From positions 1 to 37,301 of IMG/VR virus record IMGVR_UViG_3300032046_000095: DNA of 37,301 nt; one strand, written 5' to 3'. Shown here piece after piece: positions 3,760 to 37,301 of the stretch. The stretch comes from a virus. Position 1 is the first letter of the stretch. Every line of letters starts with the position of its first letter. A program made the translations under genes and the position numbers. Under the pieces are notes generated by a model. The model was given only the letters and a program-made list of their open reading frames with translations, had not been told where the DNA came from and did not search any database.

Positions 3760-4512
3760 ATGACTGAAGAAGCAGGTTCAACTCTGGGGACTATGATCCT
3801 CCAGAACGGCCTTGTCCTCGGGGAGATGTACGAACCCAGTACCCCCGGACAAACCGCCGATGTAAAAGATACCTCCGCCCAGAACAACATCGGCGGAGTG
3901 AGAACTAAACTGGTAACGTGGATCGATAACGAGAATCTGGCATTCAAGATTCTCTATACTGGATCAACGGCCCAGAACACGCTCCTTGGCGATATCTACG
4001 ACCGGGATATGGACACATGGACGGTCGTTATGCCGCCGGATTTCGGCCCGGCACCCGGAGGGATCTCGTTCAATTTCGATGGGCAGATTGCCAAAAGCAA
4101 GCTGAATGCTGATGGAGATGGCCCGGCATTCATTGAGATGGAAGTCACCGTTAATGGTCGGTTCTCCGATCCGGTCACCACATGGGCTGCCGGTCTGACC
4201 ACGACATTCTTTGGGATTGTCGATGATGATGCCAACGCACTCACTCCAGTACCGGCAGCAGCCGCAGCGGTCTATGAGTACGATCTCGAAGTGTACAGCG
4301 ACAACACCTACATCATCATCACCCCGATTGCAATCGCTGGCACGATCTACGTGAATGGTACAGTCGTGGCAACCGGCGTACCATCCGGTCATCTTACCCT
4401 GAATGTGGGCACCGGAAAGGTCACGTACATGTCAATCGTGGTTACCGAACTCAACAAGACCCCGAAGATCTACTGGATCCGCTGCCACGGTGGCTCAACC
4501 GCACACCCGTAA
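3760..4512 (+). CDS. Major tail (tube) protein with C-terminal beta-sandwich domain
   Basis: This 250-residue protein is placed between the terminator and the tail chaperones. Residues about 1-140 have the tube-protein pattern of strands ending in FIEMEVTVNGRFSDPV. After a proline/alanine-rich linker near residue 165 there is a separate beta-rich domain of about 75 residues (YEYDLEVYSDNTYIIITPIA to the end). Such extra Ig-like domains decorate the outside of the tail tube in many siphoviruses. ATG 3760 follows a GAGGA-containing leader. Confidence 0.85.
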   Translation: MTEEAGSTLGTMILQNGLVLGEMYEPSTPGQTADVKDTSAQNNIGGVRTKLVTWIDNENLAFKILYTGSTAQNTLLGDIYDRDMDTWTVVMPPDFGPAPGGISFNFDGQIAKSKLNADGDGPAFIEMEVTVNGRFSDPVTTWAAGLTTTFFGIVDDDANALTPVPAAAAAVYEYDLEVYSDNTYIIITPIAIAGTIYVNGTVVATGVPSGHLTLNVGTGKVTYMSIVVTELNKTPKIYWIRCHGGSTAHP

Positions 4513-4520
4513 GGTGACGC

Positions 4521-4922
4521 ATGGACGGCAGGAAACATACCATTTTTGAGGCGGGCGGTAAGGTCTATAACCTCCGGGTATCGTTCAATGCTATGTGTAT
4601 GTTCGACGATCAGATCGGCCCCGCTACCGACCTGCTGAAAGGCACCACGGATACCAAGAACTTCGTGGCGTACCGGGGCCTGATCTGGGTTGGTATCAAT
4701 GCATATGGCTCCGAGAAGGTGACGGTCGAACAGGCCGGCGATCTCTGCGAGGAGTATATTGCGGAGAAAGGAATGCAGGCATTCGGGAATGAGATGCGCC
4801 GGATCATCCAATCCAGCGAATGGCTCGGAAAAGATGGGGATGGTTCAAAAAACCCAAATCCGGCCCCGGTAAAACCCTCAAAGAAATCATCGCAGAGTAC
4901 CGAGACCTCGCATACGGGATAG
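4521..4922 (+). CDS. Tail assembly chaperone, zero-frame product (gpG-like)
   Basis: This 133-residue helical protein has an N-terminal beta hairpin (IFEAGGKVYNLRVSFNAM) and helices around VEQAGDLCEEYI, typical of tail chaperones that coat the tape measure protein. Its 3' end overlaps another open frame, and a canonical slippery heptamer at 4847-4853 lies in the correct phase. Normal termination at 4922 gives a Lys/Ser-rich tail; -1 slippage gives the longer form listed separately. Confidence 0.85.
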   Translation: MDGRKHTIFEAGGKVYNLRVSFNAMCMFDDQIGPATDLLKGTTDTKNFVAYRGLIWVGINAYGSEKVTVEQAGDLCEEYIAEKGMQAFGNEMRRIIQSSEWLGKDGDGSKNPNPAPVKPSKKSSQSTETSHTG

Positions 4923-8587: not shown

Positions 8588-9175
8588 ATGGGATTGCTCG
8601 ATCGGGGGGGATTAGATAAATCCCCTCTTGATCGTTCCAGCAGAGCAATCATTACTCTTTCAGGTACCGGTAACGTCAACATATCGGGGAAGGGGGATCT
8701 TTTCGTTGGGTATGTTTCCTTATCCGGTACGGGTGCAATTATCATCTCTGGGTATGGACATTTACCCGAAGTCATCAAATTATCCGGCACCGGGGCACTC
8801 GCCATAACAGGAACTGGTCATCTATCAGTTGGAGCGATATTATCCGGCACGGGTAACGTAAACGTCGGTGGATTTGGGAATCTGGAATCCTATGTTGTAT
8901 TATCCGGCACGGGTAACGTAAACGTCGGTGGATTTGGGAATCTGTTCGTATATGACACAATTGTATTCGCATTCGCCGGGACGGTTGCCATCGGGAAGAC
9001 CGTCTGCATTGACGGTCGGGATTTCACTGTGAAAAAAGATGGAGTGAACGAGATTGCATTATTCACGGGGGATTTCCCAATCATATTCCCGGATATCAGT
9101 AACGTGAAATATACGGATGCCTTGGGGAGCAGAACCGTTCTGGTTACGGTGACGAAGAAAGACAGGAAGGTTTGA
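8588..9175 (+). CDS. Tail protein with LSGTG repeats and a C-terminal DRKV module
   Basis: The start ATG 8588 follows a G-rich site. Residues about 22-120 contain five repeats of roughly 20 residues, each beginning LSGTG and ending G-x-G-x-L. The last two repeats carry a 47-bp identical DNA stretch (8838-8884 and 8898-8944). The last 75 residues (from about GTVAIGKTVCIDGRDF to DRKV) are clearly related to the separate 75-residue protein at 12603-12830. Repeats of this kind suggest a beta-helical or beta-solenoid fibre. The C-terminal module is probably an attachment domain. Confidence 0.75.
   Translation: MGLLDRGGLDKSPLDRSSRAIITLSGTGNVNISGKGDLFVGYVSLSGTGAIIISGYGHLPEVIKLSGTGALAITGTGHLSVGAILSGTGNVNVGGFGNLESYVVLSGTGNVNVGGFGNLFVYDTIVFAFAGTVAIGKTVCIDGRDFTVKKDGVNEIALFTGDFPIIFPDISNVKYTDALGSRTVLVTVTKKDRKV
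8838..8944 (+). repeat. 47-bp identical direct repeat, 60-bp period
   Basis: Bases 8838-8884 and 8898-8944 are identical, including TATCCGGCACGGGTAACG. They encode the last two LSGTG repeats of the tail protein. Perfect identity at the DNA level points to a recent duplication and makes the region prone to expansion or loss. Confidence 0.95.
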
Positions 9176-12831: not shown

Positions 12832-14685
12832 ATGGCATACGAAGTTTGGTTATTTAATGCAGCAGCGGAAAATGTTGCTATCCTCGAAAATGCGTATGAT
12901 ATCCAGCGCACCGAGAAAATCAATCAGACCCCGACCCTCTCCTTCTCCTTACCGGCGGATGATGCAAAGGCATCATTCCTGACCTCTGCGTATGACGCGA
13001 AAATATGGAACACGATTAAAAGCCGGTTTGAGGGACTCTACATGCTCGATGATTGCACCGAGAAATGGGATCCGTCCGGCAGTATCATTGAAGCCAACTA
13101 TTCCGGCGTAATGATACAACTTATCTCCGAGGAGAACATCACTTACGATACCACCGTCACTCCAAAAACCCCAACGCAGATTATCACGGCTCTCCTTGCC
13201 CTCCAACAGCATACCCCCGCGATCACGGTCGGAACTATCCAACCAACAACCTCGTTTGCGTTTGCGATTGAGAATGCCAACCTGCTGGAAGCAATCCTGA
13301 AATGTGTAGATTACCTCGGGGGATGGATAGAAGTTGATGCAGACCGGCACCTGAACTGGTATAACGAACCTGCATTAACAACGCCTGTAAGGGAGATCAG
13401 GTACAAAAAGAATATGAGGGGGGTCACCCGGAAACGGGATTTCACCAATATCGTGAACAAACTCTATGCCTACGGTGATGGAGAAACGGAAGCGCAGGTC
13501 ACTCTGATCGATGCCGGGGAGACCTATGAGTACATCAAGGATGTACCCTCACAGACCGCGTATGGCGTCAGAATCAAGCGAATTACGGATAAACGGATCA
13601 TCCACCCATCCACGCTCCTAAGGTGGGCGCAGAAGGTTCTGGCAGAGTTCAAGGACCCGATCTACTACTATACGGTCGATGTGGTGAACCTCGCAGAGCA
13701 CCCGGATTTCAATTTCGATTTTGAAGAGTTGCAGATCGGGCAGATTATACGAGTAGTAAACTCCGACCTGAACAACCTATCAGTGAATGTGAAACTCGTA
13801 TCAGTCGATACCAACCTCTCAAAACCGGAGAATATTACGGTAGAGCTTGCAAATGCCACAAAGGATCTTTCGGATACCTTCTCGGATGTGAAATCATACC
13901 AGAATCTAATCCAGAATGTAGCGGTCCAGATCGGGGCCGGGCAGGTGACCGTACAAGGCATGTTCACTGTGGATGGGTGGAGATCTGCAGGAGTAACGAC
14001 TATCAATGGTGGAATGATCACCGCAAACACCGTCACAATTTCCCAAGTGAATTTTACTGTTGTAGGTGCGGGGAATATTATCGGTACCATCAATGCCTCC
14101 TCAGAAGGCATCAGGATCTCGGCGGCAAAGATCACAATCTCGGGTTCCTGTACCTTTGCATCCGGATACGATCCGACGGGGAAGATCGCAGCAGCGGGAG
14201 CGGCAGCCGATGTGAACGCGAACGTTACCACGATCAGCGGCGGGAAGATCACGGCAAATACCATCGACTGCGACCGGCTCACCACATCCACGATAAACGC
14301 GAAGACGATCACGCTCGGAATAACCGGGAGCAACGGCGTTATTCAGTCCGTGAACTACGTTGCAGATACGAGTGGATTTAAGATCGCGGGAGACGGGAAT
14401 GCAGAGTTCAATTCCGTGAAGGTGCGGGGCACGCTATATGCCTCAACACTCGAAACCGGCAATACTCTCACGGTAAAAGGAACAATCCAATCAAATAATT
14501 ATGTTGCATGGACGTCGGGGTGGCAGTTTGGAGGAAGTGGAGATATTAAATGTCTATCAATGGATATCTTTAGTATTTTTCTACATGCTTCTGCAGCCGT
14601 CTATGGATCTCTCTATACATTGAATGGAATTAATTTAATTTGGAGTGACAAAAATGGGACTCCCCATACAATTACAATGTCATGA
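12832..14685 (+). CDS. Tail-associated protein (Tal-like) with C-terminal fibre domain
   Basis: This 617-residue protein starts at ATG 12832, two bases after the upstream stop. Residues about 1-360 follow the pattern of phage minor structural / Tal proteins (VWLFNAAAENVAILENAYD, then LLEAILKCVDYLGGWIEVD, and DRKSL-type hub strands). Residues about 365-617 consist of beta-rich repeats such as TTINGGMITANTVTI and TTISGGKITANTID, typical of trimeric fibres. It probably closes the tail tip. No peptidoglycan hydrolase domain is visible, as expected for an archaeal host. The last 40 codons are more AT-rich than the rest. Confidence 0.8.
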   Translation: MAYEVWLFNAAAENVAILENAYDIQRTEKINQTPTLSFSLPADDAKASFLTSAYDAKIWNTIKSRFEGLYMLDDCTEKWDPSGSIIEANYSGVMIQLISEENITYDTTVTPKTPTQIITALLALQQHTPAITVGTIQPTTSFAFAIENANLLEAILKCVDYLGGWIEVDADRHLNWYNEPALTTPVREIRYKKNMRGVTRKRDFTNIVNKLYAYGDGETEAQVTLIDAGETYEYIKDVPSQTAYGVRIKRITDKRIIHPSTLLRWAQKVLAEFKDPIYYYTVDVVNLAEHPDFNFDFEELQIGQIIRVVNSDLNNLSVNVKLVSVDTNLSKPENITVELANATKDLSDTFSDVKSYQNLIQNVAVQIGAGQVTVQGMFTVDGWRSAGVTTINGGMITANTVTISQVNFTVVGAGNIIGTINASSEGIRISAAKITISGSCTFASGYDPTGKIAAAGAAADVNANVTTISGGKITANTIDCDRLTTSTINAKTITLGITGSNGVIQSVNYVADTSGFKIAGDGNAEFNSVKVRGTLYASTLETGNTLTVKGTIQSNNYVAWTSGWQFGGSGDIKCLSMDIFSIFLHASAAVYGSLYTLNGINLIWSDKNGTPHTITMS

Positions 14686-14943
14686 AAATCCTAAATAAAT
14701 CCAATAAAATGTAATATTATTTTCATGAACGAACGGTGTGTCGGTGAATACTTCGAAAGAATCACGATTTGGTGCGATGGGCAACCGCTGAACATCAATC
14801 ATCTTATCCCCCGAGTAAGAGATAATCTCCGCCGTTATACCCTGTTGTTTCTGGTAATGCATTCCTATGACGAATGCACCAACCAATAGTATTGCGATAA
14901 TCGCAACAATTACCAGGTATTTTATTTTGATATCTGCGTTCAT
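14680..14943 (-). CDS. Small membrane-anchored protein
   Basis: This 87-residue minus-strand protein has one N-terminal membrane helix at about residues 9-28 (YLVIVAIIAILLVGAFVIG) and a soluble tail that would face outside. Its ATG overlaps the TGA of the upstream minus-strand gene. Its 3' end overlaps the end of the Tal gene by six bases, head to head. Minus-strand placement in a plus-strand genome suggests a moron, for example superinfection exclusion; this is not shown by the sequence. Confidence 0.7.
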   Translation of the reverse strand: MNADIKIKYLVIVAIIAILLVGAFVIGMHYQKQQGITAEIISYSGDKMIDVQRLPIAPNRDSFEVFTDTPFVHENNITFYWIYLGFS

Positions 14944-15125
14944 GCGTCCTCCTCTTTGGGTAATTCTGTGAGTTTATCCCCAGTCGGTGGTTGTGCCTGG
15001 AAGGCCACGATTACGAGTGCCCGGGCTGCCTCATCCAACGAGAGTGAACCATTCACAGAATAGTTTGTCGTTCCGTCTTTGTCAATGGTTTTTACAATAG
15101 TGAGAACTTCAATCGTATTTTGCAT
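14940..15125 (-). CDS. Small hypothetical protein, first gene of minus-strand pair
   Basis: This 61-residue protein starts at ATG 15125. No Shine-Dalgarno site precedes it, but a TATA box on the minus strand (15149-15157) lies about 28 bases upstream, so the mRNA is probably leaderless. The sequence (EVLTIVKTIDKDGTTNYSVNG then LDEAARALVIVAFQA) suggests a small alpha-beta protein. The partner at 14680-14943 is a membrane protein. Function unknown. Confidence 0.65.
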   Translation of the reverse strand: MQNTIEVLTIVKTIDKDGTTNYSVNGSLSLDEAARALVIVAFQAQPPTGDKLTELPKEEDA

Positions 15126-15214
15126 GATTCTCTATTTTGTTAGCACTGATATATATCCTTTTCCCGACCATCGAACCGTAAGGTATATAATCTCGTGCTG
15201 GTATATACTCTGAT
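15126..15214. promoter_or_regulatory. Divergent archaeal promoters with paired GTATATA boxes
   Basis: On the plus strand GTATATA at 15183-15189 lies about 27 bases before ATG 15215, and a second GTATATA begins at 15201. On the minus strand GGATATATATC covers about 15148-15157, about 28 bases from the start at 15125. Neither gene has a Shine-Dalgarno site, so both transcripts are probably leaderless. The second GTATATA may be an operator, for example for the AbrB-like protein encoded next to it. Confidence 0.65.
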
Positions 15215-15403
15215 ATGGGCAACGCGCTCAAAGTCAAGGTTAATCAAGTGAGCCGGGCGATTCGGATGTCAATACCCCAAAGTATTGCCGCCACGATCGG
15301 AATCACACCCGGAGACACTGTGAGTGTTCGGGAATCGAGAGGTAAGATGATCGTGGAAAAGGTGTGTGAGACAAGTGACAACGGAAACAACAACCAAAAA
15401 TGA
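15215..15403 (+). CDS. AbrB/MazE-like (SpoVT-AbrB) DNA-binding regulator
   Basis: This 62-residue protein has the swapped-hairpin AbrB pattern: VNQVSRAIRMSIPQSIAATIGITPGDTVSVRESRGKMIVEK. Dimers of this fold bind DNA. It is the first gene of the plus-strand accessory operon and sits next to the divergent promoter, which suggests autoregulation and control of the minus-strand pair. ATG 15215 lies at the distance from the TATA box expected for a leaderless mRNA. No toxin partner is seen, so an antitoxin role is less likely. Confidence 0.85.
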   Translation: MGNALKVKVNQVSRAIRMSIPQSIAATIGITPGDTVSVRESRGKMIVEKVCETSDNGNNNQK

Positions 15404-18047: not shown

Positions 18048-18383
18048 ATGGCAGAAAGCACAAGGGAAAGCCTCGTATCGGATGCAGATTTCTCTATCAA
18101 TCTATGGTTGAAGGATCACCCATCCGGCACGTATGTTTTGAGTGAGAAAACAATGGACGAGATCCAGGATTGGGGGCACACACTCGCAGTCTATAATCGG
18201 GTTGGTCTGAAGAGGAGAATCGGGAAAATCCTGAAAGAGGATGGGTATATCAAGAGACCGAATACATCGCCGCCAACGTGGGAAAAACCCGGGTGGGTTG
18301 CACCATTGGTAGATCCGGAACCCGAAACGGGAATTGTTGCTCGTATTAAGGAAGTATTCAGGGAGGTATTGCACTATGGTTAG
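18048..18383 (+). CDS. Hypothetical protein, possible winged-helix
   Basis: This 111-residue protein starts at ATG 18048, directly after the previous stop. The middle (TMDEIQDWGHTLAVYNRVGLKRRIGKILKEDGYIKRP) has the spacing of a helix-turn-helix ending in a basic wing. The C-terminus is a separate amphipathic helix. It precedes a larger protein with a second DNA-binding motif, so the two may act together in regulation or replication. The assignment is tentative. Confidence 0.6.
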   Translation: MAESTRESLVSDADFSINLWLKDHPSGTYVLSEKTMDEIQDWGHTLAVYNRVGLKRRIGKILKEDGYIKRPNTSPPTWEKPGWVAPLVDPEPETGIVARIKEVFREVLHYG

Positions 18384-19251
18384 ATGTGCTGATTTTTACG
18401 AGAGATGGAAGAAAGACCCGAACTGGTGTCAAAAATCACCGGATACGGTCAACCAGATTGATCATTATCTGGGGCTTGTAGGAGAACTTGAAATGCTCGG
18501 AGTCGAGACAGTGGCGATCTATAAGAAATTCCCGGAAAGGGTCGCTCGCGATATCCTGAAGATCAAGGATGATAAGATCCGGGCCGGTGTCATTGGGAAC
18601 GCTGCAGGGATGATCAAACGCGGTGATCAGGTCTCCACTGGTGATGTGAAAGTATGGGCAGGACTTGAAGAGAAATCCCAGAAATTAACCTCGAACAGCG
18701 ACGTTCGCACTCCGACCATGGTCGGAAACCGATCACCTAAAACCGAGGAGAAAACCGAAATTACCGACGTGCCATCTGCTCCGATTGCAGGTGACCTCAA
18801 AAAGAAGTACACACCACCAGAGAACAAGCCGGCACCCACTCCCGAATCTATACCACCCGTTGTATCTCCCTGTGATAATGGGTTGAAATGCGGTCTAAAA
18901 TATTTCAAAATTGAGACAATCCGGGGGAAAGTCTGCACTAATGCCAATATGCGGATCACAGAGTTACCTGGAAACGTCTGTCCGTTTGAATCGGATCTCC
19001 AAAAGCGGAAAGAGGCAGCAGCCGAAGCGGGAGGGTTCACGCCCGCGGGCGATATCGACCCGACCAATGCCGCCAAGTTCGTCAAACTGGCGCCGGTCAA
19101 GATCACCAAAGCCCCGATGGAGATTCTCTCCAAACCCTCACCAAAACAGCAGGAGTTCATTGAGCAGGCAATCGCGTCAGGCAAGTTCGACACACCGGAA
19201 CAGGTAATCAGTCAGGCACTTGACCTCTGGATGGATCAGGAGGGAGTATAA
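18376..19251 (+). CDS. Multidomain protein with C-terminal RHH/ParD-like helix pair; possible replication or regulation role
   Basis: ATG 18376 has GGGAGG at 18361-18366 and overlaps the previous gene by eight bases, giving 291 residues. Residues 1-95 are helical (YERWKKDPNW, LEMLGVETVAIYKKF, GDQVSTGDVKVWA). Residues 100-165 are a flexible Thr/Pro/Lys linker. Residues 170-205 hold four Cys (CDNGLKC, KVCTN, NVCPF). The last 35 residues (IASGKFDTPEQVISQALDLW) match the second half of ParD/CopG-type antitoxin folds. With no polymerase or helicase found, it is a candidate for the initiator or host-recruiting protein; this is inference. Confidence 0.6.
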   Translation: MVRCADFYERWKKDPNWCQKSPDTVNQIDHYLGLVGELEMLGVETVAIYKKFPERVARDILKIKDDKIRAGVIGNAAGMIKRGDQVSTGDVKVWAGLEEKSQKLTSNSDVRTPTMVGNRSPKTEEKTEITDVPSAPIAGDLKKKYTPPENKPAPTPESIPPVVSPCDNGLKCGLKYFKIETIRGKVCTNANMRITELPGNVCPFESDLQKRKEAAAEAGGFTPAGDIDPTNAAKFVKLAPVKITKAPMEILSKPSPKQQEFIEQAIASGKFDTPEQVISQALDLWMDQEGV

Positions 19252-21405: not shown

Positions 21406-21553
21406 CCCCTACCGTATGGTTGCCAGTGGAAACGCAAAAGAGAGAGAGAGAGAGTGAAACATATATATCATATATATATATGAATATATCATTCCTTTCA
21501 ACCTTCGAACGCCGTTTCTCATTCTCCACTGGAAATAATTGGGGGTCTGTTTT
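21406..21553 (+). promoter_or_regulatory. AT-rich intergenic promoter region with (AG)n tract
   Basis: Eight AG repeats lie at 21439-21454, followed by GTGAAAC and a long alternating A/T stretch to about 21487 that contains several TATA-like boxes. It would place a transcription start near 21495-21515, about 45 bases before the HNH gene. A weak frame from GTG 21402 to 21557 crosses it but is low complexity. Confidence 0.5.
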
Positions 21554-21838
21554 ATGAGAGAACGGGTTGTTTTTCAAGGAAGAACCTATTCCAGAGAACC
21601 CGATTCAAAATATCAATCAACCCGTGTTTATTATCGCAATTGGACAGGAAAACGCCTTCATCATGCCATTTGGGAATCGGTGCATGGTAAAATCCCATGG
21701 GGATATTTCATCCATCATAAGGACGGGAATCCTGATAACAACTCCATAGAGAATCTCGAAGCCGTTCTTGAACGGGATCACTTACGATATTATCATGGTG
21801 GTGCTTTCCATCACCACTCAAAAAACGAGGTGGTCTGA
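21554..21838 (+). CDS. HNH homing-type endonuclease
   Basis: This 94-residue protein starts at ATG 21554, ten bases after GGGGG. It has the HNH_3-type core: RLHHAIWE at residues 34-41, IHHKDGNPDNNSIENLEA at 53-70 and a final His near residue 76. Free-standing HNH nucleases of this size are usually selfish elements in viral genomes. It brings its own AT-rich promoter and separates two genes of the accessory operon. The next frame lacks a good start, which suggests insertion damage. Confidence 0.85.
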   Translation: MRERVVFQGRTYSREPDSKYQSTRVYYRNWTGKRLHHAIWESVHGKIPWGYFIHHKDGNPDNNSIENLEAVLERDHLRYYHGGAFHHHSKNEVV

Positions 21839-21871: not shown

Positions 21872-22243
21872 GTGACGGCGATCTCTGTCGAACGTCAGGA
21901 ATGGAAGATAGCCCATGCTCTCGGTATTCGCTTATCTGACGCCCTACGGCTCGGCCTGAACTTCATGATCAAAGACCGGATCATCGAAGGTGATCGGAGA
22001 CTCACGCCAGAAATCCTTGAGCAGTTCAAGGAAATTGAAACCCGGGACCTGCAGGATCTTGAAAGATATATACGTTTGAAAAGGGACGAGCAGACGACCC
22101 TTGATAAAATGGTTGAAATCAAAAAAGAAGTCCAAAAAGAGGAGGAATTAATCGAGGTCTATGATAAGGGCGAGGAAGCATATATACGAATCAAAAAGTG
22201 CCAGTTCGATCCGGAGTGGCACACACCCAAGGAGCCGGCATGA
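21872..22243 (+). CDS. RHH-like DNA-binding / coiled-coil protein, start uncertain
   Basis: With GTG 21872 the protein has 123 residues, but no ribosome site precedes that codon. The same frame is open back to the HNH stop at 21836-21838, where ATT 21839 lies behind GAGGTGGT; that extension adds IPAHKTFFDRYV, which reads like true protein. The N-terminus resembles archaeal ribbon-helix-helix-like proteins (SVERQEWKIAHALGIRLSDALRLGL). Residues about 50-105 are a coiled coil. The start is either a rare ATT codon or was lost by the HNH insertion. Confidence 0.65.
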   Translation: MTAISVERQEWKIAHALGIRLSDALRLGLNFMIKDRIIEGDRRLTPEILEQFKEIETRDLQDLERYIRLKRDEQTTLDKMVEIKKEVQKEEELIEVYDKGEEAYIRIKKCQFDPEWHTPKEPA

Positions 22244-28663: not shown

Positions 28664-28735
28664 GCACTCGTAGCTCAACGGTGGAGCATCCGGCTGATAT
28701 CCGGAAGGGTATAGGTTCGATTCCTATCGGGTGCA
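28664..28735 (+). tRNA. tRNA-Ile (anticodon GAU)
   Basis: The 72 bases fold into a full cloverleaf: acceptor GCACTCG with CGGGTGC (one G-U pair), D-stem GCTC/GAGC with GG in the loop, anticodon stem TCCGG/CCGGA with loop CTGATAT (anticodon GAT), a five-base variable region, T-stem ATAGG/CCTAT with loop TTCGATT, and discriminator A. No CCA is encoded, as is common in archaea. It is complete, so it is more likely a working viral tRNA than a partial attachment site. Confidence 0.9.
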
Positions 28736-31122: not shown

Positions 31123-31575
31123 ATGCCCCGGAAATGCTCCATTTGTGAACACGTATCGCGACACGAAATAGATACCGCGCTCGTCAGTCCAAACGCGACA
31201 TTACGCGACATAGCGCGACAATACCGCGTTTCCAAGGATGCTGTATCGCGACACATTAAAGGTGGGCATATCGCGGCCAAGATCCAGAAGGCCAAACACG
31301 CCCACGAAGCCCTTGCTGCCGATATTCTCCTAAACAGGATCCAGAAGTTTCACGACAAGTTCGAAAAGGTGGCAAAGAACGCCCAGCAATGGGGTGATCC
31401 AGAACTCGAACTGAGGGTCTACAATGCACAGGCAAAATACCTCGAACTTGAGGGTAAAGCCACCGGGGCCTTCCGGGAGAAGATCGAACACTCCGGAGAT
31501 ATGAATATCACAAACAAGCTGACCGACGAGGAGGTGGAAACCCGTGCAAATGCGATCCATGCCAAACGTAAGTGA
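31123..31575 (+). CDS. terS: Terminase small subunit
   Basis: This 150-residue protein starts at ATG 31123, one base after the previous stop. It begins with a CSICEH metal knuckle, then a helix-turn-helix (ATLRDIARQYRVSKDAVSRHI), and after residue 70 helices that usually form the oligomer ring, then an acidic C-terminus. It recognises the packaging site. Its own coding sequence holds five CGCGACA motifs that could be that site. It overlaps the large subunit start by 32 bases. Confidence 0.85.
   Translation: MPRKCSICEHVSRHEIDTALVSPNATLRDIARQYRVSKDAVSRHIKGGHIAAKIQKAKHAHEALAADILLNRIQKFHDKFEKVAKNAQQWGDPELELRVYNAQAKYLELEGKATGAFREKIEHSGDMNITNKLTDEEVETRANAIHAKRK
31157..31253 (+). repeat. Five CGCGACA motifs in the small terminase gene (candidate pac site)
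   Basis: CGCGACA occurs at 31157-31163, 31194-31200, 31204-31210, 31214-31220 and 31247-31253. The three central copies are spaced exactly 10 bp, one helical turn, so they face the same side of the DNA. In headful-packaging phages the pac site often lies within or near the small terminase gene. Function is inferred. Confidence 0.6.
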
Positions 31576-32838: not shown

Positions 32839-33216
32839 ATGTCAGCAAAAAAACAGCAGCAGGTAAAGAAGCAGGAACCGCAGAAGACCACAGAGACAGT
32901 ACCGCCCATAGTGGCAAAACCCGGCGGCACCGAACCCGGCACCCGCCCGATGATCCAGGCACCGGCAGAGGAGCCGCGCACGACCACAACGATCCAGGTG
33001 AGCACCGAGAACAAGGGCCGGCTTGAGATCCTAAAAGGGATGCTCAATATGCCTGACTACAACAGCACCATAGGCCGGATAATCGACATCATCCCGCAGA
33101 AGCTGAGCACCGAGCAGGAGGTCCACCTTATCATGCCGGTCTCGCGGTTCCGGTGGTTGCTCGCCCATCAGGACTCATGCGACTGCCGGACGGCCCTCAA
33201 TGATGCGAAGGTGTGA
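32839..33216 (+). CDS. RHH-like protein between terminase and portal
   Basis: ATG 32839 gives 125 residues; an upstream frame overlapping terL is not needed. The first 50 residues are low-complexity, rich in Lys, Gln, Pro and Thr. Then TTTTIQVSTENKGRLEILKGMLNMPDYNSTIGRII fits a ribbon-helix-helix DNA-binding fold, followed by a helix and a CDC motif. The first residues could contact DNA. It may regulate the morphogenesis operon or bind a repeat array; this is inference. Confidence 0.65.
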   Translation: MSAKKQQQVKKQEPQKTTETVPPIVAKPGGTEPGTRPMIQAPAEEPRTTTTIQVSTENKGRLEILKGMLNMPDYNSTIGRIIDIIPQKLSTEQEVHLIMPVSRFRWLLAHQDSCDCRTALNDAKV

Positions 33217-33219
33217 GGG

Positions 33220-34767
33220 ATGGCCGCCCGTAAATCTGCTGTCAAAGCCGCACCTACGCAGGAACCGCTCGTGAAGATGCACGAAGAGCTCATGATCCGG
33301 TACAACAACCTCGCCCTCGAAATGGAACAGCGGCTTGATGGAGATGGCAAATTCTCCGAATCCCTCAGCGATCTCGATTGGGCTAACCGGGTGGACCGGG
33401 ATTATCTTTGGATCCGCACTAGTGGCGCCAATGCCCCGCAGTTCCGGTACATGACCAAAGAGATCATCGACATGTACGCCGATATCGCGGCCTTCATGGC
33501 GGTCTATAATCCCCTCGTCAAGCGTATTGTCGATGTGAAAACCCAGTTCACATTTGCCCTTGATTATTCCATCACTTCCGAGACCGGACAGGATACCATC
33601 GATGAGATCAAGAGGGACGACCTGAACCAACAGGCATTCTTCGGGCACCAGGCAATTGCGGATATCGACGGCGAACTTCAGAAGGCGGGCAACGTCTTCA
33701 TCGCCATCTGGCCTGATAAGAAGCAGGTCCGGGCGTGGAGCAACTACGAGATCCGGGATATCGTGACGGACTCAGAGGATGCCTGCAGGCCGCTGTTCTA
33801 CCTACGCTCGTGGCTCGATGATAAGGGAAGCGAGCACCGGAAGGCATACCCATCGGTATTCGTTCAGCCGGGCGATATACCAACGAGCAAGACGGCACTT
33901 TCCCACCTTGGCAGCAACTACGAGGTCGATCGGAATGCCGTAGTCTACCACATGAGCGCCAAGAAAGGCATCAAGCAGAAGTTCGCGCTCTCGGAGCTGG
34001 TCGCTGTCTGCCGGTGGGCGAAACCCCACGAGAAATATCTCGAAGACTTCGCCGCGATCGTGGCCGCTCTCCGGAAATACTCGCACCTCATGACCACCAA
34101 GGGCACGGCCTCGCAGGCGTCCGCTATAGCGACACAGTTCAAAGGCAACACGGATTATATGGGCACCCCGCTCCAGAGTCAACCAGCCGGTTCAATGGTC
34201 GTGGCGCAGGAAGGAAACGAGCTCCGGGTTGTGGACGCTGGCAGCGGCAAGATCGTGGGCATTGAAGGTGCCCGGTCGTTCCTACTCATGGTATCGGCTG
34301 CGTCGGGTGTACCGGAAACCTACCTCACCATGGACCCGAGCACCGGGAATCTCGCAACGGCAAAGCAGATCTCGCCTGTATTCATCATGCTCATCCAGGA
34401 GCGCCAGACTGCTTGGAAGAATGCTCTTACAATTGTTTTCAAGACGCTACTGGAATCTGATGATTTCGAGGTATCATTCCCGCCAATCCGGGATAATATC
34501 GATGCTTATGTTGCCAACGTCAATGCATTCGCCCGGACTTCTCAGGGTACATGGACGGGAGCAGTTCAGCCGGTCGATTACATCAAGGCGGCATACGAGG
34601 CGCTGGAATGGAAACTCCCCGACAAGGAAACCATTGATACCATGGCAGCCGCGCTGGAGGCATCCGGGGCGGTGCCAGCGGAACCCCCGGGTATGGATGC
34701 CGGTCTTGACGCTATAGCGCAGGCGGCCACGGGGCTGATGGAAGCGGCGAGGAAGTCTAAAGCATGA
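33220..34767 (+). CDS. Portal protein
   Basis: This 515-residue protein starts at ATG 33220, three bases after the previous stop. Segments such as EIIDMYADIAAFMAVYNPLVKRIVDVKTQ near residues 85-110 (stem and crown region) and GVPETYLTMDPSTGNLATAKQI near 360-380 are typical of siphovirus portals. It forms the dodecameric DNA gate at one capsid vertex. It lies between the terminase block and the MuF-like gene. The C-terminus is Ala-rich and helical. Confidence 0.9.
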   Translation: MAARKSAVKAAPTQEPLVKMHEELMIRYNNLALEMEQRLDGDGKFSESLSDLDWANRVDRDYLWIRTSGANAPQFRYMTKEIIDMYADIAAFMAVYNPLVKRIVDVKTQFTFALDYSITSETGQDTIDEIKRDDLNQQAFFGHQAIADIDGELQKAGNVFIAIWPDKKQVRAWSNYEIRDIVTDSEDACRPLFYLRSWLDDKGSEHRKAYPSVFVQPGDIPTSKTALSHLGSNYEVDRNAVVYHMSAKKGIKQKFALSELVAVCRWAKPHEKYLEDFAAIVAALRKYSHLMTTKGTASQASAIATQFKGNTDYMGTPLQSQPAGSMVVAQEGNELRVVDAGSGKIVGIEGARSFLLMVSAASGVPETYLTMDPSTGNLATAKQISPVFIMLIQERQTAWKNALTIVFKTLLESDDFEVSFPPIRDNIDAYVANVNAFARTSQGTWTGAVQPVDYIKAAYEALEWKLPDKETIDTMAAALEASGAVPAEPPGMDAGLDAIAQAATGLMEAARKSKA

Positions 34768-35594
34768 CCCTCTATGAAGCCGCCGCCCGGCTCTCCCGCG
34801 CCGTGATCGCACTGAAGAAGCGCCGGGAAAAGGACACCCTCGCCCGGAAGCACCAGAAGAAGATCGCGGCCTTTTTCAGGGCACAGAAAGCACAGGTCCT
34901 GGACCGGATGAAGGAGCAGGAATACCTATTCTCGGAATCATTCCGCCGTCTTTCGGAGGAAACGATCATCGACTTCACGCTCCAAAACTGGGATCGCATC
35001 TGGGAAGTTATTGCCAATGGCAGTAGTGGGGATCTCCAGAAAATCATTTTCCAGGCTGAAGCCGATGGGGTAATCCGTGGATCTGAGCAGCTCAAGAAAG
35101 CCATCCCGCTGTTTGACAAAAAATCATCCTTCAATCTTGCAAATCCCCGCGCCGTGCAATGGTTTTCCGACCGGGGTGGTAGCATCGACTACATCAAGGG
35201 TATCCAAAGCACCACGGGCGATCAGCTCAAAAGCATCATCGGCAAAGCCATCGATGAGGGCAAATCCTACACACAGACCGCCAAGGAGATCTCGGAGAAA
35301 TTCGATGATTTCACTCGCGACCGGGCGCAGCGGATCGCCGTCTACGAGACCGGGCAGGCATACGAGGAGGGCAACATGCTCTTCTCGCAGTCGCTCAAAG
35401 ACGACGGGCTCGTGATGGAAAAAAAGTGGATGACCAGCCATGATGAAAAGGTCAGGCCGGAGCACCAAGCCAACGAGGCGGAGGGTTGGATCCCCATCGA
35501 CCAATACCACGGAACGGGCGATTATATTCCGCCATCTGATCTGGGCTGCCGGTGCTATGAAGAGTACCGGGAAGCGCCCCAAATGGCGGGATAA
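34764..35594 (+). CDS. MuF-like minor head / morphogenesis protein
   Basis: This 276-residue protein starts at ATG 34764 (ATGA overlap). Residues 1-190 are mostly helical and basic. The C-terminal MuF signature is clear: KKWMTSHDEKVRPEHQAN at about 220-237, then IPIDQ and PPSDLGCRCYEEY at 257-268. MuF proteins are minor capsid proteins that may enter the cell with DNA. The gene ends just before the repeat array. Confidence 0.9.
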   Translation: MTLYEAAARLSRAVIALKKRREKDTLARKHQKKIAAFFRAQKAQVLDRMKEQEYLFSESFRRLSEETIIDFTLQNWDRIWEVIANGSSGDLQKIIFQAEADGVIRGSEQLKKAIPLFDKKSSFNLANPRAVQWFSDRGGSIDYIKGIQSTTGDQLKSIIGKAIDEGKSYTQTAKEISEKFDDFTRDRAQRIAVYETGQAYEEGNMLFSQSLKDDGLVMEKKWMTSHDEKVRPEHQANEAEGWIPIDQYHGTGDYIPPSDLGCRCYEEYREAPQMAG

Positions 35595-35599
35595 TAGTT

Positions 35600-35986
35600 A
35601 AAAGTTACTCTCAATATGATATGTTTACACCACATTGAAGTTAAAAGTTAGGTACAATATGATGTGGTTATGACATATTGAAGTGAAAAGTTGATCATCA
35701 TATGATGTAAGTATAGTAGATGGAGACAAGAAGTTGGGTACGATATGATATGACTATAGCATATGGAAGTCAAAAGTTTGCCTCCGTTATATATACACTT
35801 GATAGATGGCACTCAAAAGTTGAGAGCCATTATATATATTTTCGATAGATGGAGGATAAAAGTTGGGTACGATATGCTATAGGTACATCATATTGTACTT
35901 AAAAGTTAACCATGATATGGTGTACTTATATCATATAGGGGTTGAGAGTTATGGATGATATGATATAATATGACAGATCCTTCCTA
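35600..35986 (+). repeat. Nine 43-bp degenerate direct repeats with an internal dyad
   Basis: Units begin at 35600, 35643, 35686, 35729, 35772, 35815, 35858, 35901 and 35944, exactly 43 bp apart. Most start AAAAGTT, then a variable part and ATATGATAT. Many have the dyad ATATG-N12/13-CATAT, with CAATATG/CATATTG perfect in the second unit. There is no unique spacer, so this is not CRISPR, and the block is noncoding. Possible roles are iteron origin, partition site, or operator for the head operon downstream. Confidence 0.9.
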
Positions 35987-36082
35987 AACTGAATTGATAT
36001 TTACCCCATCTCAAAGAAATATGAGCAGGCACCGACCGAATAACCCGCTCTTTTATACAACATTCACCTTTAGTTAGGTAAT
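35987..36082 (+). other. Noncoding spacer between repeat array and promoters
   Basis: Together with the repeat array and the two promoter elements this completes a noncoding block of about 640 bases (35595-36236). I see no gene in it. It contains a few A/T-rich runs and an isolated frame of no interest. A packaging or replication role for the whole block is possible. Confidence 0.5.
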
Positions 36083-36091
36083 CTTTATATA
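36083..36091 (+). promoter_or_regulatory. TATA box, first promoter before the protease operon
   Basis: CTTTATATA at 36083-36091 is a good archaeal TATA box and would set a transcription start near 36114. A hairpin with a six-base stem (GCACAT/ATGTGC, 36108-36125) lies at that start. Confidence 0.55.
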
Positions 36092-36107
36092 CTTACATCG
36101 CAGGGCC

Positions 36108-36125
36108 GCACATGCCCCGATGTGC
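36108..36125 (+). promoter_or_regulatory. Perfect 6-bp hairpin at predicted transcription start
   Basis: GCACAT (36108-36113) and ATGTGC (36120-36125) flank a six-base GC-rich loop. In DNA it could be an operator and in RNA a 5' stem. It lies about 27 bases after the TATA box. Confidence 0.45.
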
Positions 36126-36203
36126 ATCCGATAAACAGACCATAGCCAAATTTCCTTCTTTCACATCTAAAACACACCCTTCTTCACTATAGGACAGGCT
36201 TTC

Positions 36204-36214
36204 CTATATATATA
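36204..36214 (+). promoter_or_regulatory. TATA box, second promoter before the protease operon
   Basis: CTATATATATA at 36204-36214 lies about 28 bases before ATG 36237, which starts a 14-residue frame with no Shine-Dalgarno site. This is the same leaderless geometry seen at three other sites in the window. Confidence 0.55.
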
Positions 36215-36236
36215 ATGTTCAACGCCAATATGTACA

Positions 36237-36281
36237 ATGGCAGCCAGAAAGTCCATTTTTACCGGGTGGTGCCATGCCTAA
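36237..36281 (+). CDS. Possible 14-residue leader peptide
   Basis: The frame MAARKSIFTGWCHA lies at the leaderless position after the TATA box and overlaps the protease start by eight bases. It could couple or regulate translation of the protease gene. It may also be chance; its first six residues equal those of the portal protein, without obvious reason. Confidence 0.35.
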   Translation: MAARKSIFTGWCHA

Positions 36282-37301
36282 GGGCCAATGGACGCCCCCG
36301 GATGCCGGAGAGGATGCCCCGGCTGAAGTGAAAGACATCCTTGCCAGAGTCTATTCTGATTACCGTGATGAGCATCCCGCTGAAGATCCCGCCGTCAAAG
36401 CTAAGGGTGCGCAGATCGCATGGGGCGCCGTCAAGAATGCAGGCTGGGAAAAGGACGCTGATGGTAAGTGGGTAAAGAAATCCGCCAAAGAGTCCACCGT
36501 TTTCGATTCCCCATTCTCACACTTCCGGCTGATCGAGGCCGGCAAGAAAGGCGAGCTCCTCATCGATGTTCATATCATCGGTCCTGGGTGGGGGGCCTCA
36601 GGATACTATTCCGAGACCGTCCTGAAGAAAGCCTGCGAGAGTGGCGTGTACCCGGAGGGGATGCACATGCACATCGACCACCCCACCCGTTCCGCTGAGA
36701 AGGAACAACCCGCCCGGACCATCAAGGGAGAATCACCACTTGCAGCGGTCCTCACGGAGGCCGGGCATTACGACCCGAAAGGATGGGACGGCCCCGGGGT
36801 GTATGCCAAGGCCCGCGTGATGCCTCAATTCATCGAGGATATCAAGGCGATGGACGGCCATATCGGGATCTCCCACTATGTCAGCGGGAAGTCCGAGGTC
36901 GGTGAGGCTGAGGGCAAGAAAGGCCCCATCATTACGGAACTGATTGCGGATTCCCTGAACACCGTTGACTTTGTCACGGTGCCTGGAGCCGGTGGGCATT
37001 ATCGCACGCTGTTTTCGGAGATGAAGGTCGGACGGACAGACCCGATTGGAAACATGAACAAAAAGAAGGAAGGAAACATGGGAACTGACAATCAGGAATC
37101 ACTGACACTCTCGGAGGTTCGCACGAACCACCCGGAGATTTTCGAGGAGATGAAAAGAACTCTCTCGGAAGAGCTCAAGATTGAGTCCGTCACCAAGGAC
37201 CAGACCAAGAAACTGATCGAAGCAGCGGATAAGATCAAGGCTCTGGAACAGAAGGTCGCAGAGCAGGGCGCGAAACTCGCAGAGGTGAAGGCCCGCGAGT
37301 A
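36274..37301 (+). CDS. ChaB-like domain fused to prohead protease and scaffold (3' end beyond window)
   Basis: ATG 36274 follows GGTGGT and gives 342 residues to the edge. Residues about 18-70 look like a ChaB domain (ILARVYSDYR, GAQIAWGAVKNAGW, DADGKWVKK). Residues about 80-250 are the prohead protease: His136 in HIDHP, Ser200 in GHIGISHY and the typical VDFVTVPGAGG. After residue 265 a helical coiled-coil scaffold begins. If the ends join, a TGA at 26-28 closes the frame at about 351 residues. The protein builds and then cleaves the prohead scaffold. Confidence 0.88.
   Translation, partial: MPKGQWTPPDAGEDAPAEVKDILARVYSDYRDEHPAEDPAVKAKGAQIAWGAVKNAGWEKDADGKWVKKSAKESTVFDSPFSHFRLIEAGKKGELLIDVHIIGPGWGASGYYSETVLKKACESGVYPEGMHMHIDHPTRSAEKEQPARTIKGESPLAAVLTEAGHYDPKGWDGPGVYAKARVMPQFIEDIKAMDGHIGISHYVSGKSEVGEAEGKKGPIITELIADSLNTVDFVTVPGAGGHYRTLFSEMKVGRTDPIGNMNKKKEGNMGTDNQESLTLSEVRTNHPEIFEEMKRTLSEELKIESVTKDQTKKLIEAADKIKALEQKVAEQGAKLAEVKARE
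37078..37301 (+). CDS. Nested in-frame scaffold protein (internal start)
   Basis: An in-frame ATG at 37078 (residue 269 of the protease protein) is preceded by GAAGGAAGG at 37067-37075. The product would begin MGTDNQESLTLSEV and be the helical scaffold alone. Lambda C/Nu3 provides the model for such nested scaffolds. The 3' end is beyond the window or at 28 if circular. Confidence 0.6.
   Translation, partial: MGTDNQESLTLSEVRTNHPEIFEEMKRTLSEELKIESVTKDQTKKLIEAADKIKALEQKVAEQGAKLAEVKARE

Follow-up and report, generated by a model that had tools for sequence, protein, structure and literature searches.

The closest described counterparts of the locus analyzed here are the operators of two RHH proteins of archaeal viruses, SvtR of SIRV1 and AvtR of AFV6. 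The high-affinity site of SvtR precedes the TATA box of a structural gene by ~80 nt, and spreading from it has been proposed; the region protected by AvtR spans ~100 nt and contains degenerate sites (PMC5569661). Repeats of a different kind are known from phage TE, which escaped ToxIN by extending ToxI-like repeats (PMC5086642). Here we describe a tandem array of nine 43-bp units upstream of the head maturation protease gene of a virus represented by IMG/VR record IMGVR_UViG_3300032046_000095. The entire record (37,301 bp) was analyzed and is referred to as the window. Our preferred reading, held tentatively and with slightly less than even confidence, is a cooperative upstream operator array that would control late head genes.

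No terminal repeat was found in the record, and the main genes all lie on the plus strand. Since portal and capsid are 24% and 39% identical to those of Methanoculleus virus Blf4, the record likely represents a siphovirus-plan virus of methanogens that is distantly related to Blf4. To our knowledge, hardly any work has addressed how tailed viruses of methanogens control their late genes. Both record ends lie inside the head operon. Judged by mapping on relatives (L010, L006, and L011), the genome is nearly complete, because the part of the head operon absent between record end and start amounts to only ~0.9–1.2 kb. Regarding other features, the window contains a tRNA-Ile (GAT) gene (28664–28735) and a tail gene with a 60-bp periodicity (8696–8950), a coding repeat that also occurs in L025, L027, and L029. 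The relative G001 encodes an integrase, tyrosine-recombinase-like by eye, between tail and early genes (L019, 17818–18846). At its place in the window (14685–15403), there is no integrase and only a gene with a MazE/AbrB fold, which suggests a switch from integrating to non-integrating life between the two viruses. The large terminase of G001 (L020, 15532–17565) is interrupted by a stretch that looks intein-like by eye (CLSGDT...VHNC), and inside this stretch lies an HNH-like match to window positions 21539–21838.

Table 1. Positions of the array and of associated features in the window.
Feature	Position	Strand	Remarks
Tandem array	35600..35986	+	nine 43-bp units; 32% G+C
Heptamer AAAAGTT, first copy	35600..35606	+	recurs every 43 bp; AGTT invariant (9/9)
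26-bp dyad site, unit 1	35612..35637	+	unit positions 13–38, centre 25.5; dyads recur every 43 bp
MazE/AbrB-fold protein, 62 aa	15215..15403	+	candidate binder; Pfam E = 5.4e-7; no homologue in relatives compared
RHH-like protein (by eye)	21872..22243	+	candidate binder; no homologue in relatives compared
RHH-like protein (by eye)	32839..33216	+	candidate of the preliminary description; homologues in array-free relatives
Protein with RHH-like C-terminus (by eye)	18376..19251	+	candidate of the preliminary description; homologue (33%) in array-free G001
MuF-like minor head / head morphogenesis gene	34764..35594	+	adjoins array upstream; last ~12 codons replaced relative to relatives
Non-coding remnant of a second MuF 3' end	36019..36054	+	83% over 36 nt to L009 MuF 3' end
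TATA-like box 1, archaeal (TTTATATA)	36082..36089	+	~96 bp downstream of array
Small-ORF remnant	36096..36134	+	ORF intact in L010/L011; 85–87% over 39 nt
TATA-like box 2 (CCTATATATATA), predicted protease promoter	36203..36214	+	surrounding sequence homologous to L010/L011
Head maturation protease	36274..37299	+	first gene downstream of array; runs off record end

Positions 35600–35986 are fully occupied by nine units of exactly 43 bp each (387 bp in total), which begin at 35600, 35643, 35686, 35729, 35772, 35815, 35858, 35901, and 35944. The autocorrelation of the array reached its maximum of 0.602 at lag 43, compared to at most 0.411 at any lag of 10–149 in 1000 dinucleotide shuffles. Lags 86 and 129 were prominent as well, and the array was independently detected by TRF. 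The array, one in one record, is therefore real, and the exact register claimed in the preliminary description is borne out. Pairwise identity between units ranges from 33 to 77%, and the consensus approximates AAAAGTT-N5-C-N-ATATGATAT-N4-TATNNCATAT-N-G-N5. AGTT is present in all nine units and the full AAAAGTT in seven; ATATG is likewise found in seven of nine, with TTATATATA in its place in units 5 and 6. Conservation is thus concentrated in the heptamer and the half-sites, i.e., in the parts (AAAAGTT and ATATG/CATAT) that had been named as preserved. With a PWM built from the units, the nine units scored 21–51, and no other site on this strand of the window exceeded 3.7. Since 43 is not divisible by 3 and the array is free of overlapping ORFs of ≥ 60 aa, the block is confirmed as non-coding and a coding repeat is excluded. 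A CRISPR-like array was also rejected, since the would-be spacers resemble one another.

The best common dyad centre was unit position 25.5, with 61 of 117 pairs compared to 46 for the second-best centre. With 7–9 of 13 pairs formed, the 26-bp dyad is clear in units 1–4, 7, and 8; it is weak in units 5 and 6 (4–5 pairs) and absent from unit 9 (3 pairs). The earlier statement that each unit carries a dyad is thus too strong: it holds for units 1–4, 7, and 8, applies in weakened form to units 5 and 6, and fails for unit 9. As in operator arrays, dyad half-sites are repeated with regular phasing. By arithmetic, the centre of AAAAGTT (unit position 4) is 21.5 bp away from the dyad centre, which corresponds to half a period.

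An NJ tree of the units gave 2.7 substitutions per site (~116 in total), and there were no indels between units. Both the column-entropy variance and the best conserved seven-column run exceeded the values of all 2000 uniform-rate simulations on this tree. The probability of zero indels is 0.10, 0.003, and 0.00001 at indel:substitution ratios of 1:50, 1:20, and 1:10, respectively, ratios that are our own assumptions. That spacing and position are both under constraint is well supported for the one array sampled, and the proposed selection on geometry is upheld in this form. These data also bear on a decaying satellite, i.e., tandem duplications that were brought in by recombination and are now without function. 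Such an origin would fit the absence of the array from all relatives examined and its position next to gene remnants in a cargo slot of variable content. However, the clustering of conserved positions in AAAAGTT and the ATATG/CATAT half-sites rejects uniform decay, and a complete lack of indels would be expected only at an assumed indel:substitution ratio of about 1:50 or lower. We consider a decaying satellite unlikely.

Folded as RNA, the whole array outperformed shuffles on both strands (z-scores of −5.6 and −6.8). This could indicate an RNA array of nine hairpin units with AAAAGUU linkers, serving as processed RNA or as a decoy comparable to the pseudo-ToxI antitoxin mimics of phages, for which the ToxI-like repeats extended by phage TE to escape ToxIN provide a precedent (PMC5086642). 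Consistent with this, RNAalifold predicted a 7-bp hairpin on the plus strand and none on the minus strand, and the whole-structure covariation score on the unit alignment was higher than in 499 of 500 shuffles. Most single units, however, did not fold better than shuffles (six of nine, z-scores of −1.1 to +1.3); unit 3 was intermediate (−1.4), and units 7 and 8 were clearly better (−2.5 and −2.3). The covariation signal was limited to outer pairs (P = 0.02–0.05), whereas inner-arm pairs did not exceed column shuffles (P = 0.96). There was no strand-specific wobble signal, as G.T mismatches were no commoner than A.C mismatches relative to shuffles, and an Rfam search of the array matched no family. 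The next gene downstream is the head protease, and neither a ToxN-like gene nor any other toxin gene was found in the Pfam scans run. Furthermore, ToxI-type repeat arrays are expected to be far less diverged than these units. An RNA array is quite improbable given these results, and the conserved half-sites are more simply read as DNA.

Read as DNA sites, the repeats are well placed for an operator array: they directly precede a predicted promoter region with TATA-like boxes at 36082 and 36203–36214, which has homologous sequence in relatives. A 12-mer of array unit 3 recurs in reverse complement as TATACTTACATC from position 36088 onward. The inverted 12-mer spans TATA box 1 (P ~0.003 before correction for 10 regions); after correction for the ten regions it is weak evidence. 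Downstream of the boxes, a 14-codon leader (MAARKSIFTGWCHA*, 36238–36282) overlaps the start of the protease ORF, and its start is also present in L010, L011, and L049. The protease ORF itself begins with ~68 residues that match L014/L015 separately and look ChaB-like by eye; they had no Pfam match.

The MuF and protease genes are separated by a gap (35595–36273 in the window; L005, L009, L012, and L049 in relatives) that forms a cargo slot for small ORFs, among them collagen-like, HNH-like, and CcdA-type RHH ones. In G001 (L005/L011), MuF runs into collagen-like repeats followed by further small genes; this MuF gene (L005, 6810–7500) is extended by collagen-like G-x-y repeats, a fusion that looks unusual. 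The gap contains small ORFs in G004 (L009/L010), and a CcdA-type RHH gene (4432–4611), an HNH-like ORF, and others in G005 (L012). It is reduced to a short promoter in G002, G003, and L049, and is missing in Blf4, where MuF and protease genes abut. Elsewhere in G005, an intergenic block of the early region (L026, 6450–6758) carries four 27-nt copies of TAATACTCCATTTATGGATGATTAATT with spacings of 58, 166, and 58, which form a separate iterated-operator-like set. A likeness between the array and the promoter of the G005 CcdA gene (the 11-mer TACATCATATT plus AACTTTTAA; P ~0.02–0.03 before correction) was not retained as a main argument.

The preliminary description had proposed a search of related viral genomes for the same array at the same position, and none of the relatives examined has it. 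Periodicity scans of the relatives, including the gap between MuF and protease, revealed no comparable array; the periodicities that did appear were multiples of 9 bp in L041–L043, partly far from the gap, and a 42-bp period in G001 that stems from the coding collagen-like stretch. Among the relatives without the array is G001, with protease and portal 88% identical to those of the window. Scans of IMG/VR with three-unit and two-unit invariant patterns, both of which recover the array in the window, gave no matches, and a scan with three AAAAGTT copies gave only two unrelated AT-rich repeats; as exact-pattern searches, these scans would miss arrays with other motifs. A 'distant' blastn search against phages and plasmids did not detect an array either. 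The array is therefore an acquired insert rather than a conserved viral element. Its absence from relatives, which the preliminary description had set against its own reading, leaves the within-array evidence for function untouched. The MuF gene of the window is 92–95% identical to G001 DNA over the 120 bp that precede its last ~50 bp, and 48% thereafter. By this comparison, the array is an insert whose far side is marked by the broken second MuF 3' end just downstream. Most simply, recombination with a related, unsampled virus would have introduced both the array and a different MuF tail; in that virus, too, the array would have followed MuF.

As to the protein that may bind the array, the MazE/AbrB fold of one of the four viral candidates was assigned by Pfam, whereas the other three were classified as RHH by eye. 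The two RHH-like proteins put forward in the preliminary description (18376–19251 and 32839–33216) had no Pfam match, and neither is probably a specific partner, because both have homologues in array-free relatives; for 32839–33216, this role is unlikely. By presence and absence, the proteins at 15215–15403 and 21872–22243 fit better and may be the best candidates. An IMG/VR scan revealed no relative of the latter, and its structure model was uninformative. Including this one, AlphaFold predictions for two RHH-like candidates were of poor quality (pLDDT of 70, with low confidence at the N-terminus, and 49). The binder could just as well be a host protein.

RHH-like proteins would also be needed if the array were the RHH-bound, centromere-like partition site of a plasmid-like prophage. 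The encoded proteins that look RHH-like by eye are in line with this, as is the lack of a detected integrase gene in the window compared to its presence in G001. However, Pfam searches of the nearly complete genome revealed no ParA-, ParM-, or TubZ-like NTPase, and the RHH proteins initially suggested have the homologues in array-free relatives mentioned above. We regard a partition site as very unlikely. An iteron-type replication origin, at which an initiator would bind the nine units and melt adjacent AT-rich DNA, would explain phased tandem repeats in an AT-rich non-coding block. Iterons usually measure ~17–22 bp. No Rep-like initiator was identified in the genome (Pfam/PHROGs), near relatives replicate without the array, and the array is inserted in the late region. 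A GC-skew switch at the array had been named as a feature to look for; the extrema of the detrended skew are instead at 2.6 and 26.3 kb, a weak test as the main genes all point one way. An origin is hence doubtful, and the lack of a skew extremum at the array and of detectable ParA-like, Rep-like, and integrase genes weakens the origin and partition readings as initially offered. Finally, the array lies ~3 kb downstream of the terminase genes, and the product of 31123–31575, a candidate small terminase, weakly matches an HTH and has homologues positioned ahead of terminase, which would suit a packaging (pac) or terminase-recognition site. Since this candidate is conserved in array-free viruses (60% in G001), we consider a packaging role highly improbable.

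Compared to the operator, the origin, partition, packaging, RNA, and decaying-repeat readings are all less supported. For the operator speak the position-specific conservation with zero indels over ~116 substitutions, the common dyad centre in most units, conserved as sequence rather than by covariation, and the non-coding, AT-rich location directly upstream of the protease/capsid promoter region. The unit-3 12-mer inverted across TATA box 1 and the CcdA-type RHH gene in the same gap of a G005 virus add to this. Against it stand the lack of an identified binding protein, the absence of the array from all relatives examined, among them G001, which needs no array for late transcription, the absence of matching sites at other promoters in the window, and the length of 387 bp, which is unusually large for an operator. 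From the whole of this evidence, we infer protein binding, cooperativity, and late-gene control. In the proposed operator, the array would provide nine evenly phased DNA-binding sites, each consisting of an asymmetric AAAAGTT heptamer and a 26-bp dyad. Dimers of a DNA-binding protein from either virus or host could fill these sites cooperatively on one helix face, as 43 bp correspond to about four helical turns. The nucleoprotein array formed in this way would lie upstream of the two TATA boxes, by 96 bp for box 1 and ~217 bp for box 2, and would control the late promoter that serves the protease/capsid operon. Either repression, with the protein spreading to the TATA boxes, or activation from the upstream array would fit. 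A more far-reaching version, which we regard as rather speculative and unlikely, would make the array a cassette for late-gene control that is exchanged among archaeal tailed viruses: heptamer and dyad would alternate at a half-period of 21.5 bp, the nine repeats would form a nucleoprotein filament, and the cassette would move by recombination at the MuF 3' end.

A phased nine-site array beside the head promoter offers a defined DNA bait for finding a late-gene regulator, and the MuF–protease cargo slot can evidently take up regulatory DNA as well as genes. Among known systems, plasmid and phage iteron origins and operator arrays share phased tandem repeats in an AT-rich intergenic block with this locus; iteron origins differ in that no cognate initiator is found here and the array is misplaced relative to the GC skew. 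Partition sites of the RHH/ParB type likewise have repeated dyads able to bind dimers, but this nearly complete genome has no partition NTPase. ToxI and pseudo-ToxI arrays (type III antitoxin RNA) are alike as virus-borne non-coding tandem repeats, whereas the RNA evidence is weak here, the units are diverged, and there is no toxin gene. The operators of SvtR and AvtR belong to other viruses and hosts and comprise ~100 bp or few sites without a strict 43-bp register. However, they, too, have several degenerate and partly dyad sites ahead of the promoter of a structural gene, cooperative spreading has been proposed for them (PMC5569661), and their geometry appears comparable to that of the array.
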